Source: Thermoanaerobacterales bacterium 50_218 (GTDB lineage: Bacteria; Bacillota; DSM-12270; Thermacetogeniales; Thermacetogeniaceae). Taken from it: DNA of 64,000 nt. Of this stretch, positions 1,634 through 56,940 are shown in pieces (position 1 is the first letter of the stretch; the number at the start of each line of letters is the position of its first letter). Location of the stretch: contig LGFL01000001.1 in NCBI GenBank assembly GCA_001508855.1, positions 1 to 64,000 on the forward strand, read 5' to 3'. The notes beneath the pieces were generated by a model. It saw only the letters and a list, made by a program, of their open reading frames with translations, searched no databases and was not told where the DNA came from. The translations under genes were made by a program, and so were the position numbers.

Positions 1634-1661
1634 ACCCTTAATGAGGAGGTCAAGATTAGCT

Positions 1662-3974
1662 ATGATGCGTTCTCTCTTTTCTGCTGTCTCTGGTTTGAAT
1701 GCTCATCAATTGCGGATGGATGTCATCGGCAACAATATCGCCAACATCAACACCCCGGGCTTTAAAAAGAGCAGGGTTACCTTTCAGGATATGCTTTATC
1801 AGACGATTCGCGGTGCGAGCCGGGGGACGAACCCGGTGCAGGTGGGTCCTGGTGTCACCATTGCCAGCATTGATACCATCTGCACTCCCGGTAATCTCCA
1901 GAACACTGGTAAGACGACTGACCTGGGGATTGACGGAGATGGCTTCTTCGTTCTCAGCGAGGATGGTGGAAGAAGGCTCTACACGAGAGTGGGCAATTTC
2001 GACTTCGACAGTAATGGCTATCTCGTCAGTCTCCTCAACGGAATGAAGGTCCAGGGCTGGCTACCAAAGAACTCCAGTGCTGATATCCGCAATATTCAGG
2101 ATGATGAGAAAAAATTCGGTTCAATCAAGGTTAATTTTCAGGATCCAGAACCAGCAAAGGCAACGAGTGAAATGGTTTTTGCCGGGAACCTCGACTTCAG
2201 GGCGAACAACGGGATTCTCTTATTTTCATCAACCGAGACAACCACTGCTCGCTTTAACGTGGAATATAGTGATGGCACCGAAACAGGAGAAGTGGAAATG
2301 AGGCTTAGCTTTACCCCCACAAGCAAGTTCAACACTTGGAAGTGGGAAATTACTGCCCTCCGCGGAGGAACAATTATTAGGGGTGGCAGTGGAACCGTTA
2401 CTCTGGACTCTGAGGGAAAAGTTGCAGCTATCAGTACTGATGATGGAGCTAATGCTGTTAAGATTAAAGTTGGTGATGGAGAGTTTATCACTGTTGCTTT
2501 GCCTGCAGTAGGTGATGATCCCGGAAATTTCGTGAAGTGTGGTTCGGGAGGGTCGCTCAGCTTTCCTCCGGATTTTGCATTACCTGACGAAATAATCTCC
2601 GATCCTTTTACTCTGACTTACACTGGTAGTGATGGAACGCCGAAGGACTTATATATTGATTTCAGTTCGAATGACCTAGTTAATTGGAACTGGGAAATAA
2701 AGGACAGCAATGGGAACTTGCTTGGTAGTGGAGCCATTGAGTTGGCTTCCGACGGAACAGTTAGTGCGGCTAGTGGTTCTGCTGCGGTAGATGTTAATGG
2801 TGATGGAACCCCAGATGACACGATTCAGCCTCCTACTAAGGGTAATGCTCCCACGGATTTCACATGTACGTCGGGAGGGTCGCTCAGCTTTCCTCCGGAT
2901 TTTGCATTACCTGACGAGGAAAAAATCTCCACTACTTTGAGTGTGACTTACACTGCTAGTGATGGTACAGAGAAGCAGGCGCAGTTAGATATTGATTTCA
3001 GTTCGAAGGATCTAGTTAATTGGAACTGGGAAATAAAGGACAGCAATGGGAACTTGTTTGGTAGTGGAACCATTGAGCTAGATCCGAACACCGGAGATAT
3101 TCTATCCATTACCGGTGACTCTGTTGATGTGGATCTGGATGGTGATGGTGTAAAAGAGTTCAGAATAATTCCTTTCCTTGACCCTTCTTCTGGCGAATTA
3201 TTCTACTTATCACCGGTAAGTGTTTCTTTGATCTACTCCGAATTGGATCCTACTCAATTCACACCACCGGGAATCAAGCTGGAGCAGACCGTTTATGATG
3301 CATCAGGAAACACTTACAATGTGGCGATCAGGTTTATCAAGAGGGATGAGAACGGAAACTGGGACTGGGAGGTTGAGTCGATCACCAATTCCAAGGGTGA
3401 GACACTTGACGCCACTACTAATGAGATAACCGGAAGCGGCAGCCTCAAGTTCGATGGGAGCGGGAAGCTGATTAGTGGCGGTATCGGCACCATCACCTTC
3501 GATCCCGATGGAACTGGGTACCTAAAGAAAGTGGCTATCGATGTGGACTTTTCCAGGTTGACCCAGTACGCTGCTGAGTTTACTGCAGTCGTTGAAAGCC
3601 AGGACGGCTACCCTGCGGGAACCCTCGAAAGCTACACCATTGATCAAACCGGAACGATTATTGGAGTCTACTCCAACGGAGTCAGCAGAGGCCTCGCCCA
3701 GATCGCCCTAGCGCGTTTTACCAACCCGGCGGGGCTGACGAAAGAAGGGAGTTCTCTCTTTTCTGAGTCCAGCAACTCAGGGGACGCGCTATTTAACGTG
3801 CCCGGGGCGAAGGGCTACGGGACGATCAAGCCCGGTTCCATCGAAATGTCTAATGTGGACATCTCCGCCGAATTTGCCGAACTGATCATAACCCAGAGGG
3901 GATTCCAAGCGAACTCGAGGGTGATCACTGCCTCTGATGAGATGCTTCAGGAACTTGTCAATTTGAAGCGTTAA
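1662..3974 (+). CDS. flgE: Flagellar hook protein FlgE, enlarged by internal duplication
   Basis: 770 residues, well above the usual 400-500. The N-terminus (MMRSLFSAVSGL, then the GNNIANINTPGFK block) and the C-terminus (NVDISAEFAELI, QRGFQANSRVI, ending LVNLKR) are the rod/hook D0-D1 helices. ATG 1662 is chosen because AGGAGGT lies at 1644-1650 and family members start MMRS; an upstream in-frame ATG at 1641 overlaps the Shine-Dalgarno site. The middle holds repeated beta modules of about 109 residues, each with a W-x-W-E-(I/V) core. Two of them are nearly identical in DNA (copies begin at 2544 and 2871) and each has one cysteine. DxDxDG-like loops occur at nt 2785-2830 and 3115-3160. The protein polymerises into the external hook. 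Confidence 0.93.
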   Translation: MMRSLFSAVSGLNAHQLRMDVIGNNIANINTPGFKKSRVTFQDMLYQTIRGASRGTNPVQVGPGVTIASIDTICTPGNLQNTGKTTDLGIDGDGFFVLSEDGGRRLYTRVGNFDFDSNGYLVSLLNGMKVQGWLPKNSSADIRNIQDDEKKFGSIKVNFQDPEPAKATSEMVFAGNLDFRANNGILLFSSTETTTARFNVEYSDGTETGEVEMRLSFTPTSKFNTWKWEITALRGGTIIRGGSGTVTLDSEGKVAAISTDDGANAVKIKVGDGEFITVALPAVGDDPGNFVKCGSGGSLSFPPDFALPDEIISDPFTLTYTGSDGTPKDLYIDFSSNDLVNWNWEIKDSNGNLLGSGAIELASDGTVSAASGSAAVDVNGDGTPDDTIQPPTKGNAPTDFTCTSGGSLSFPPDFALPDEEKISTTLSVTYTASDGTEKQAQLDIDFSSKDLVNWNWEIKDSNGNLFGSGTIELDPNTGDILSITGDSVDVDLDGDGVKEFRIIPFLDPSSGELFYLSPVSVSLIYSELDPTQFTPPGIKLEQTVYDASGNTYNVAIRFIKRDENGNWDWEVESITNSKGETLDATTNEITGSGSLKFDGSGKLISGGIGTITFDPDGTGYLKKVAIDVDFSRLTQYAAEFTAVVESQDGYPAGTLESYTIDQTGTIIGVYSNGVSRGLAQIALARFTNPAGLTKEGSSLFSESSNSGDALFNVPGAKGYGTIKPGSIEMSNVDISAEFAELIITQRGFQANSRVITASDEMLQELVNLKR
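2544..3190 (+). repeat. Intragenic tandem duplication in flgE (two 327-nt units)
   Basis: The sequence starting TCGGGAGGGTCG at 2544 recurs at 2871, an offset of 327 nt (109 codons). The first roughly 48 nt of the two units are identical, and a second block (GATTTCAGTTCGAA onward, near 2660 and 2995) is nearly identical over more than 80 nt. The ends of each unit have diverged. This is a recent in-frame duplication of one surface module. More diverged relatives of the same module flank it on both sides in the protein. Confidence 0.9.
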
Positions 3975-4016
3975 GGTGACCTCGATGGATTTGCGTTTGC
4001 TTTGGAGGCGAATCTT

Positions 4017-4086
4017 CGTTCCCACAGGTGAGGATAGAGACGAAGGGCGCCCGCGGCGGCGCGGGCGCCCCCCTCTGGTGGGAACG
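4017..4086 (+). promoter_or_regulatory. Very stable nested hairpin between flgE and flbD
   Basis: The outer stem is 4017-4025 with 4078-4086 (CGTTCCCAC/GTGGGAACG, 9 perfect bp). The inner stem is 4045-4055 with 4060-4070 (GGGCGCCCGCG/CGCGGGCGCCC, 11 perfect bp, loop GCGG). A 4-bp helix (4036-4039 with 4073-4076) can form between them. No U-tract follows, so it is unlikely to terminate transcription by itself. It lies between the heavily translated hook gene and the downstream motor genes. A role as a 3' stabiliser of flgE mRNA or a processing site is inference. Confidence 0.6.
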
Positions 4087-4104
4087 GGAACAGGAGTGAA
4101 AAAG

Positions 4105-4332
4105 GTGATCCGGGTGACTCGCCTCAATGGAGAAGAGTTCTACGTTAATTCTGATTTGATCGAATTCATTGAAAAGACCCCGGATACTGTGCTCACCCTA
4201 ACTACAGGGAGGAAAGTGGTTGTCAAGGAGGATGTTCCCGAGATTATTAAACGTATTGCCGAGTTTCGGCGCTTCTTGAACAGTGTTTCCACTGAAGAAA
4301 TTTCTGGGGAAGAAGACGGGAAAGAAGACTGA
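4105..4332 (+). CDS. flbD: Flagellar protein FlbD family
   Basis: 75 residues. It opens with MIRVTRLNGEEF and continues LIEFIEKTPDTVLTLTTG, the hallmark of the small FlbD/YlzI (swrD-type) family found between flgE and motA or fliL. In Bacillus the homologue SwrD raises motor torque, possibly through the stators. GTG 4105 is chosen because CAGGAG lies 8 nt upstream and the family starts exactly at MIRVTRLNG. A longer reading from 3976 would run through the nested hairpin and give an arginine-rich leader that no family member has. The next gene is motA, which fits a stator-related role. Confidence 0.88.
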   Translation: MIRVTRLNGEEFYVNSDLIEFIEKTPDTVLTLTTGRKVVVKEDVPEIIKRIAEFRRFLNSVSTEEISGEEDGKED

Positions 4333-4351
4333 GTAAACTGGGGTGTAGGAA

Positions 4352-5155
4352 ATGGATTTGGCGACAGCAATCGGCCTTTTGTCGGGCTTGTTCCTTCTCG
4401 TTTGGGCGATCAAACTCGGTGGCCCGTTGGATGCGTTTTTGCATCTGCCTTCTTTGATGATCGTTGTTGGGGGAACCCTTGCGGCTACTCTGATCAGTTA
4501 CCCTTTGAAAAGTGTCATCGGAGTATTTGGTGTCCTCAAGAAAGCATTTTTTAACAAGTTGCAGGACCCTGCGGAAATCATCAATACCCTGGTCAAGTTC
4601 GCCGAGAAGGCGAGGAGGGAAGGCCTCCTTGCCCTCGAGATGGACGCCGAGGAAATTGACGACAAGTTCCTCCAAAAGGGGATCCAGCTCGTTGTCGATG
4701 GAACTGATCCCGAACTTGTTAAGAGCATTTTAGAAACAGATCTCGCTTTTCTCGAAGAGCGGCACAGGGCAGGAAGAGCGATTTTCGAAACGATGGGCCA
4801 GTTGTCTCCTGCTTTCGGGATGATCGGAACCCTGATCGGGCTCATCCAAATGCTCGGCTCACTTAATAATCCTGAGGAGATCGGCCCAGGTATGGCCACG
4901 GCTTTGATTACCACCTTTTACGGGATCTTGATGGCCAACCTTGTTTTTAACCCGATCGCCGGAAAATTAAAGGTACGCACGAGTGAAGAGGTTCTTTTAC
5001 GGGAAGTGATGATCGAGGGAATCCTTTCCATTCAAGCAGGAGAAAACCCCAGGATCGTGGAAGAAAAAATGAAGGTTTTTCTTGCACCACGCCTCCGGGA
5101 AAACATCGCTTATACCCGTGAGCGACAGGCAACAGCCGAGGAGGTCGGGGAATGA
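4352..5155 (+). CDS. motA: Flagellar motor stator protein MotA
   Basis: 267 residues with four hydrophobic segments (about 1-20, 32-50, 150-170 and 180-200) and a large cytoplasmic loop between the second and third, as in MotA/PomA/MotP. The conserved GGTLAATLISYP and SPAFGMIGTLIGLIQML stretches are present. With MotB it forms the ion-conducting stator that drives rotor turning. In Bacillus subtilis motAB lies elsewhere; here it is embedded in the fla operon. The stop overlaps the motB start (ATGA), so the two are translationally coupled. Confidence 0.93.
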   Translation: MDLATAIGLLSGLFLLVWAIKLGGPLDAFLHLPSLMIVVGGTLAATLISYPLKSVIGVFGVLKKAFFNKLQDPAEIINTLVKFAEKARREGLLALEMDAEEIDDKFLQKGIQLVVDGTDPELVKSILETDLAFLEERHRAGRAIFETMGQLSPAFGMIGTLIGLIQMLGSLNNPEEIGPGMATALITTFYGILMANLVFNPIAGKLKVRTSEEVLLREVMIEGILSIQAGENPRIVEEKMKVFLAPRLRENIAYTRERQATAEEVGE

Positions 5156-5874
5156 GACCAAGGCAGAAACGAGAACCTTCTTTCCGCGGGTCACCAGCTT
5201 GGATGACTACTTATGCGGATATGTTCACCTTGCTGCTTTGTTTTTTCGTTGCTCTTTATGCTTTTTCAGTGATTGATGTTGAGCGCTTTCGGATAGCACT
5301 TTTGTCGATCCAGGGCTCACTGGGGTTTTTCGAAGGAAACCCAGCGGTTCTCGAAGAAGAAGCAACCCCACTCGGAGAAGAAGCCACTGATGACCTTCAG
5401 ATGGAGCGTGTTGTTAAAGAGGCCGAGGAATTTTTCAAGGAGCGAGGGCTGTATGGTAAAATAAAGCTGGTCAGGGATGAGAGGGGACTGATTCTCAGGT
5501 TTCAGGAGACTGTTCTTTTTGACCGTGGCAAAGCTGAGCTAAAACCAGAAGCGAAGACAGTTCTTGCCGAGGCAGCAGAGTTCCTCAAAAAAATACCCAA
5601 CCAGGTGCGGGTTGAAGGTCACACCTGTGATCTTCCGATCCATTCTTCCAAATATCCCTCGAATTGGGAATTGTCAACTGCCAGGGCAACCACTGTGATC
5701 CAGTACTTCATTGCTCTGGGGCTGCCTGGTGAGAGGCTTTCAGCAGTGGGTTATGGGGAGTACCGTCCTGTAGTGCCGAACACCTCGGAGGCTAACAGAA
5801 GGCAGAACAGGCGTGTGGATATCCTGATTTTGAAGCAAGAGCTTGGAGCTAAGGAACCTACACCGGCAGAGTAG
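5152..5874 (+). CDS. motB: Flagellar motor stator protein MotB (OmpA-type peptidoglycan-binding C-terminus)
   Basis: 240 residues. There is one transmembrane helix at about residues 20-42, with the ion-binding aspartate at D23 (TYADMF). An OmpA/MotB peptidoglycan-binding domain covers about residues 110-230 (FDRGKAELKPEA, VEGHTCDLPI, NRRQNRRVDI). It anchors the stator to the wall while D23 carries the driving ion. The segment after D23 (LLLCFFVALYAFS) is more like the sodium-type PomB helix than Escherichia coli MotB; see findings. The gene starts inside the motA stop. Confidence 0.93.
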   Translation: MRPRQKREPSFRGSPAWMTTYADMFTLLLCFFVALYAFSVIDVERFRIALLSIQGSLGFFEGNPAVLEEEATPLGEEATDDLQMERVVKEAEEFFKERGLYGKIKLVRDERGLILRFQETVLFDRGKAELKPEAKTVLAEAAEFLKKIPNQVRVEGHTCDLPIHSSKYPSNWELSTARATTVIQYFIALGLPGERLSAVGYGEYRPVVPNTSEANRRQNRRVDILILKQELGAKEPTPAE

Positions 5875-37255: not shown

Positions 37256-37309
37256 GTAGACCTTCATGCTGCTCATGCGGCACCATCAAAAGTACGAAAA
37301 TAAAGGGTT

Positions 37310-37505
37310 ATCCTTGCAGGCGAAGCGACCTTATGGAGGTTGTTACCTCGCCCTTGACGAGGAGCAGCTAACGGCAGCCGAATCGAAACAGGAAGTTAAG
37401 ATAGGCGACTATGCGCCACGGATGGCGTCATAGGAGCCGGTCGGCTGCCGTCTGCGACAAGTCTTAGGGCGAGTTCAACCGCAGTACGAGAGCGAGCGCA
37501 AGGAT
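37310..37505 (+). ncRNA. Unassigned multi-helix structured RNA between rimP and nusA
   Basis: The rimP-nusA spacer is 302 nt and holds no convincing gene. It folds into a closed domain. P1 is 37310-37317 with 37498-37505 (ATCCTTGC/GCAAGGAT). P2 is 37347-37354 with 37466-37473 (CTCGCCCT/AGGGCGAG). P3 is 37371-37381 with 37441-37451 (11 bp), continued by 37364-37367 with 37453-37456. P4 is the hairpin 37409-37433 with loop CGGA. Competing pairings (37336-37340 with 37345-37349; 37346-37350 with 37358-37362) suggest a switch or pseudoknot. It does not match T-box, lysine, cobalamin, c-di-GMP or glmS cores as I know them. A HEARO/omega-RNA-like relic or a nusA leader element are both possible. 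Confidence 0.6.
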
Positions 37506-54882: not shown

Positions 54883-54892
54883 TTTGTTTGGC

Positions 54893-54921
54893 TTGTAATT
54901 GCAAAAATTTTGCAGTATAAT
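54893..54921 (+). promoter_or_regulatory. Promoter with palindromic operator-like spacer
   Basis: TTGTAA (54893-54898), a 17-nt spacer and a perfect TATAAT (54916-54921). The spacer contains TGCAAAA-A-TTTTGCA (54900-54914), a 15-nt palindrome placed between the two promoter elements. Transcription would start near 54928. Confidence 0.75.
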
Positions 54922-54967
54922 GAAACGGGCGATGGGAACGGTTTTTAATCATTGATTTAATCATTGA

Positions 54968-55008
54968 GAGAAACCTACCTTCTTCCGGGCGTGGTGAGGT
55001 AGGTTTTT
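54968..55008 (+). terminator. Terminator upstream of the RNase J gene
   Basis: AAACCTACC (54971-54979) pairs with GGTAGGTTT (54998-55006), extended by GAG/CTC, and the 3' strand ends in TTTTT. It lies about 45 nt after the predicted start of the promoter at 54893-54921, so transcripts from that promoter would be only about 80 nt long unless they read through. Confidence 0.85.
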
Positions 55009-55125
55009 CTCATTTATCTGGTGATTCATTTCACTTTTTTCTTCCCATCTTTGCTTGGAGTGACCTGTTGGGCCTCGACCGGACTACCTGTTGGTGGAAA
55101 GTAGCTGAAAGAAATGGAGGTGAAA

Positions 55126-56852: not shown

Positions 56853-56940
56853 GCGGCTGTGGCGGAACTGGCAGACGCGCTAGACTCAGGATCTAGTGGG
56901 GAAAAACCCCGTGGGAGTTCAAATCTCCCCAGCCGCACCA
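56853..56940 (+). tRNA. tRNA-Leu (anticodon CAG)
   Basis: The acceptor stem is GCGGCTG (56853-56859) with CAGCCGC (56930-56936), with encoded CCA at the end. The anticodon stem CTAGA/TCTAG holds the loop CTCAGGA, giving anticodon CAG for CTG codons. A long variable arm (GGGGAAAAACCCC-type) marks a class II tRNA. The T loop GTTCAAATC is standard. Confidence 0.97.

Follow-up and report, generated by a model that had tools for sequence, protein, structure and literature searches.

We have analyzed a stretch of 64,000 nucleotides (the window) from Thermoanaerobacterales bacterium 50_218, positions 1 to 64,000 of contig LGFL01000001.1, and in particular the gap that follows the gene of the flagellar hook protein. 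This gene, flgE, lies on the forward strand at 1641..3974 and codes for a protein of 777 aa with Pfam matches to Flg_bbr_C, FlgE_D2 and Flg_bb_rod. It is followed on the same strand by flbD (SwrD-type), whose proper frame at 4105..4332 matches the Pfam family FlbD PF06289 (E 9.3e-27), and by the stator genes motA (4352..5155, MotA_ExbB) and motB (5152..5874, MotB_plug and OmpA), also on the forward strand. FlgD, FliL, FliM and a CheC/FliN-type protein (labelled fliY) were confirmed by Pfam as well. Judging from strand and spacing, flgE and flbD would be the upstream and downstream cistrons of one transcript. A tandem duplication was found inside flgE at 2544-3077: segments with lengths of 47, 60 and 93 nt come back at a distance of 327-336 nt downstream with 78-100% identity, so that the middle of the hook protein contains a portion that was doubled recently.

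Between the flgE stop codon (TAA, 3972-3974) and the GTG of FlbD at 4105 there is a gap of 130 nt. Here a preliminary description had noticed an all-GC stem of 11 bp nested within a stem of 9 bp, and both arms were indeed located in the sequence. The outer stem (4017-4025/4078-4086, forward strand) pairs CGTTCCCAC with GTGGGAACG through nine Watson-Crick pairs, with one further U-G pair beyond them, and the inner hairpin (4045-4055/4060-4070, same strand) pairs GGGCGCCCGCG with CGCGGGCGCCC through 11 G-C pairs closing a GCGG loop. The RNAfold energy of 3960-4110 was -63.7 kcal/mol, against a mean of -51.8 (sd 3.9) in shuffled sequences (z -3.04), and none of the 200 shuffles was as stable. The core hairpin of the gap, at -27.2 kcal/mol, ranked 26 among the 88 flgE-flbD junctions described below. 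No T-run follows the stem, again as first described, and a terminator scan of 3500-4700 gave nothing at 4017-4086 and three weak sites, all within 4371-4447. An intrinsic (Rho-independent) terminator at this site was rejected, since no U run stands behind the GC-rich stem. Searches against Rfam 15 gave no family at gathering score at the hairpin site and no match at that score in 16 relative loci; the three matches found at the site with relaxed thresholds were far under the gathering scores and were taken as chance. The sole Rfam match at gathering score in the window was a tRNA gene at 56853-56937. With a rough gene call, no gap of 30-500 nt in the interval from 55 to 33,800, other than that of flgE-flbD, gave z<-2. 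Farther along the window, two gaps without Rfam match also gave low values by the same rough gene call and 60 shuffles: a divergent one at 37277-37503 (z -5.25) and a co-directional one at 54883-55113 (z -3.52).

We have looked for similar examples at the same junction in other genomes of the phylum, Bacillota. A search for FlbD gave a match in 35 of 61 genomes and, in the order, in 11 of 20, and a search of 398 phylum genomes with PF06289 gave a match in 248; loci were picked among the about 165 matches listed. The first set had 60 stretches from 54 families, hand-picked from the listed FlbD places, and the second 40 more from other species, three of them repeats, with families that overlap those of the first. 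In total there were 98 loci including the window, a sample spread by choice and not random. Two genomes from beyond the phylum had no FlbD match; Thermotoga, of another phylum, does have FlbD according to a control of the PF06289 search. Genes were placed by tblastn with the proteins of the window, and the gap from the flgE stop to the FlbD start was folded, and it was counted as having a hairpin if one unbranched hairpin reached -12 kcal/mol or better. For gaps of 25-400 nt (86 of the flgE-flbD gaps) z scores were calculated against dinucleotide shuffles, and the junctions flbD-motA, flbD-fliL, motA-motB, motB-fliL, fliL-fliM and fliM-fliY of the same regions were used as controls, many of them being too short to score; flgD-flgE was excluded because a further gene lies in between.

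The flgE-flbD junction was present in 88 of the 98 loci, covering 51 families, and 81 of these junctions had the hairpin (54 of the 58 junctions of the first set and 27 of the 30 of the second). In 47 of the 51 families it was found in at least one member and in 45 in every member examined; four families were entirely without it (f6, f66, f128 and f139) and in two others (f65 and f49) one member lacked it. A z<-2 was reached by 60 of the 86 scored gaps and, at the control junctions, by 10 of 121; when only gaps of 35-120 nt were compared the figures were 49 of 69 and 4 of 62. The median z was practically the same in both sets (-2.99 in the first, -3.03 in the second). The typical hairpin consists of some 14 pairs with a 4-nt loop, and over the 81 hairpins the stem starts at a median of 9 nt past the flgE stop and ends at a median of 24 nt before flbD. 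Two families, f49 (L144, L146, L147, L148, L062) and f21 (L107, L149, L150), have longer gaps of 127-269 nt with several stable stems. Since 26 of 86 gaps fall short of z<-2 and 7 of 88 junctions have no hairpin, the structure is dispensable. The hairpin sequences differ between families, with no evident common sequence, while the position stays constant. Conservation of a hairpin at a single junction in 47 of 51 families, in spite of its changing sequence, suggests that place and stability are what is selected.

The stretch in front of FlbD can also be read as protein. From GTG 3976 an open frame of 118 aa extends across FlbD (it contains EGRPRRRGRP, and the Pfam match is at residues 45-99), and in the same frame ATG 3985 is a better start, with AAGGTGA ahead of it. 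This Shine-Dalgarno-like motif (3973..3979, forward strand) overlaps the flgE stop, forms a duplex of -6.9 kcal/mol with the 16S tail and lies 5 nt before the ATG, so that a candidate N-terminally extended FlbD of 115 aa would be coded at 3985..4332 of the forward strand. The four members of the clade (the window, G004, G010 and G015) all have a gapless frame of 38 codons between this ATG and the GTG that precedes FlbD, each with a similar Shine-Dalgarno, and the frame of the extension had the lowest pN/pS of the three frames in five of the six pairs (0.49-0.76), the sixth, G004-G015, giving 1.72. These data make it conceivable, and we hold it as a minority reading, that in the clade of the window FlbD has an arginine-rich extension at its N terminus, coded by 3985-4104, and that the palindrome comes in part from the RPRRR codons, something that would be compatible with a role of the RNA. 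Against it, the pN/pS values of the extension (0.49-1.72) were well over those of FlbD (0.10-0.17) and of the flgE end (0.05-0.21). Besides, FlbD has a ribosome site of its own (CAGGAGTGA at 4091..4099, forward strand, duplex -7.5 kcal/mol) 5 nt before GTG 4105, the Pfam match begins only at residue 45, and just 6 of 86 junctions, three of them in the clade of the window, have a frame that is open from a point at most 30 nt away from the flgE stop. The synonymous divergence of the pair G004-G015 was 0.05 in the extension, while FlbD gave 0.51 and the end of flgE 0.42, which suggests a constraint on the nucleic acid itself, although one close pair is thin evidence. The preliminary description had set the protein reading aside in favor of an RNA structure. 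As the general feature the RNA structure stands, but in the clade of the window frame, length, ATG and Shine-Dalgarno are kept together with a weak coding signal, and here the stretch may be translated as well. If 3985-4104 is translated in the window, ribosomes would open the hairpin, which would count against a role of it as RNA barrier.

Another reading is that of a partial transcription terminator or pause site, with only part of the polymerases reaching flbD and beyond. The same ratio of hook to downstream products would be expected from it, and a few cases look suitable: 3 of the 81 hairpins have at least five T among the 8 nt behind the stem, and in G001, which has no FlbD match, the flgE 3' hairpin precedes a long T-run with no flagellar match behind, and may end the transcript. 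Nevertheless, most hairpins, that of the window included, are without a T-run (at most two T in those 8 nt in 59 of the 81), and we regard this explanation as rather unlikely for the junction at large.

The hairpin could also belong to the gene behind it, as a translational insulator or leader, either by controlling the access of ribosomes to flbD or by shielding a processed flbD transcript at its 5' end, and its location just before the ribosome site, at a median of 24 nt from the start, would fit such a role. We have examined this by looking at each gene without the other. In the 10 loci without the flgE-flbD junction, the preceding gene ends at most 25 nt before flbD and in four cases overlaps it; this gene is FliJ by Pfam in L050 and looks alike in the other nine. 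None of the 10 loci with flbD behind fliJ had the hairpin. The flgE gene was examined in 13 genomes of these families, one of which (G022) gave another gene and was dropped, and a hairpin of -23 kcal/mol or better was found after flgE in 3 of the remaining 12, all with flbD elsewhere (G327, G362 and G394). The hairpin predicted at the 3' end of the hook gene is thus present in another gene order too. These three loci (L172, L174 and L170, respectively) share a hairpin of similar core, AGGACTTGGG...AAGTCC, after flgE and before another rod/hook-type gene. Among 17 genomes without FlbD match, flgE was found in 11 and motA was the next gene in eight. Three of these eight flgE-motA junctions had a hairpin of -12 kcal/mol or better (G025, G035 and G056), G040 had one of -11.7, and G021, G031, G037 and G043 had none. 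In G001, G005 and G062, also without FlbD match, a hairpin of -23 kcal/mol or better was located within 120 nt after flgE. As 5 of 8 flgE-motA junctions and 9 of 12 other flgE junctions are below the cut-off, flgE alone does not require the hairpin. Still, the hairpin is tied to flgE more than to flbD: it can follow flgE where flbD is not the next gene, and in no case was it seen ahead of flbD unless flgE came first. This, and a flbD ribosome site that (judged by eye) is usually outside the stems, makes an insulator or leader rather unlikely.

Changes within the hairpin itself were also considered. In a consensus of the four clade members, 6 of 35 pairs were kept by two-sided change and the covariation term was slightly unfavorable; many pairs of this consensus structure are broken in the window, whose register differs. 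In near relatives elsewhere (12 sets, ordered pairs) two-sided changes numbered 92 and changes to G-U 139, whereas 108 pairs changed to A-C and 183 were broken in other ways. The picture is mixed, and we have not taken the counts of pair changes as support for the hairpin; what is kept seems to be the presence of a hairpin at that position and not a fixed set of pairs. The sense strand was the more stable one in 68 of 86 gaps, with 273 G-U pairs against 117, but dinucleotide shuffles gave the same difference of -3.8 kcal/mol, so the asymmetry is an effect of composition, provides no evidence for an RNA role and was rejected as such. The possibility that the palindrome belongs to a repeat family was not borne out: at up to 3 mismatches it was found in one place of the 1.77-Mb draft genome (121 contigs, 94% complete, so that an unsequenced copy is possible), and a REP-like dispersed repeat was discarded as BLAST matched only the hairpin itself. 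A DNA palindrome bound by protein, or a remnant of recombination or of a mobile element, would agree with perfect inverted repeats that are symmetric in DNA and with sense and antisense stabilities that are equal beyond composition, but the single copy in the genome, the lack of an evident common sequence between families and the fixed place just after a stop codon inside an operon make it very improbable.

The explanation that we favor, and consider on balance probable, is that the intercistronic hairpin at the 3' end of flgE acts as a barrier that stabilizes the hook mRNA after cleavage, the upstream piece outliving the downstream one and more hook being made. From a single transcript, a long flagellar operon has to provide its products in unequal amounts, the hook needing many copies of FlgE and the motor parts fewer. 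The RNA polymerase would pass through the hairpin within the long flagellar transcript, because there is no U-tract behind it; an endonuclease would cleave further downstream; the hairpin would halt 3'-to-5' exonucleases; and the piece bearing flgE would outlive that of flbD-motAB (or flbD-fliL), with more hook protein made than downstream products. The sequences show the structure and where it sits, that it recurs across the phylum, mostly with no U-tract, and that it goes with flgE more than with flbD; the cleavage, the arrest of exonucleases and the resulting mRNA ratio at the hook junction are inferred. The hairpin of the window has several traits of a 3' stabilizer, being intercistronic, behind the upstream stop, more stable than expected by chance and without U-tract. 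The preliminary description had proposed such protection of the flgE 3' end, together with unequal levels of hook and stator mRNA. The comparative evidence (47 of 51 families, mostly with no T-run) suggests the first part as the leading idea; the stator is not the specific partner, because hairpins are also found where flbD is followed by fliL instead of motA (e.g., L040, L092 and L096). Hairpins of unrelated sequence at the same spot in most of the relatives examined suggest a common way of keeping the hook mRNA intact and of setting the level of hook against that of the following genes, and they single out a small segment in which hook dosage may be set post-transcriptionally in many bacteria. 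More speculatively, and with little probability as a whole, hook stoichiometry might be encoded in RNA throughout the phylum by fast-evolving hairpins, one for each of most operons with the order flgE-flbD, which would protect the hook mRNA while the remainder decays, and in the clade of the window the hairpin might have been drawn into a translated FlbD extension, ribosomes starting at ATG 3985 melting it and coupling the lifetime of the hook mRNA to the translation of FlbD.

In the open-access literature we found no report of a hairpin behind flgE, and the element appears to be a device of known kind, the 3' protective hairpin, at a site, the hook junction, that we did not find described. 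A hairpin in the cggR-gapA operon of Bacillus subtilis sets the stoichiometry of the operon by stabilizing a cleavage product (PMC11780869). Unlike at flgE-flbD, where the upstream gene is the presumed beneficiary, that stem-loop comes after the cleavage site, and it is the downstream piece that it protects (PMC11780869). In Escherichia coli a stable hairpin stood immediately before the 3' end of the stabilized part in 26 of 34 gene pairs; in 17 of these 26 it was inside the downstream reading frame (PMC5927463). The hook junction resembles this malE-malF type of differential operon decay, in which 3' protective hairpins stabilize the upstream segment, in having a stable hairpin with no uridine tract that here is possibly within the downstream frame, while the operons and RNases there are others; the terms flagell-, motility and flg have 0 occurrences in PMC5927463. 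For Clostridium cellulolyticum, the accessible sections of PMC4423207 make no mention of flagella and describe stem-loops at processing sites, 27 of 33 at 3' sites and 28 of 33 without U-run; intergenic stem-loops of the cellulosome operon were tied there to higher mRNA of the upstream gene, and orthologous stem-loops were found in related species. Processed ends and transcript levels were mapped in that system (PMC4423207), while the hook junction was followed here by sequence in 51 families. Like in that selective RNA processing and stabilization (PMC4423207), the flgE-flbD hairpins are intergenic, located 3' of the upstream gene and mostly without U-run.
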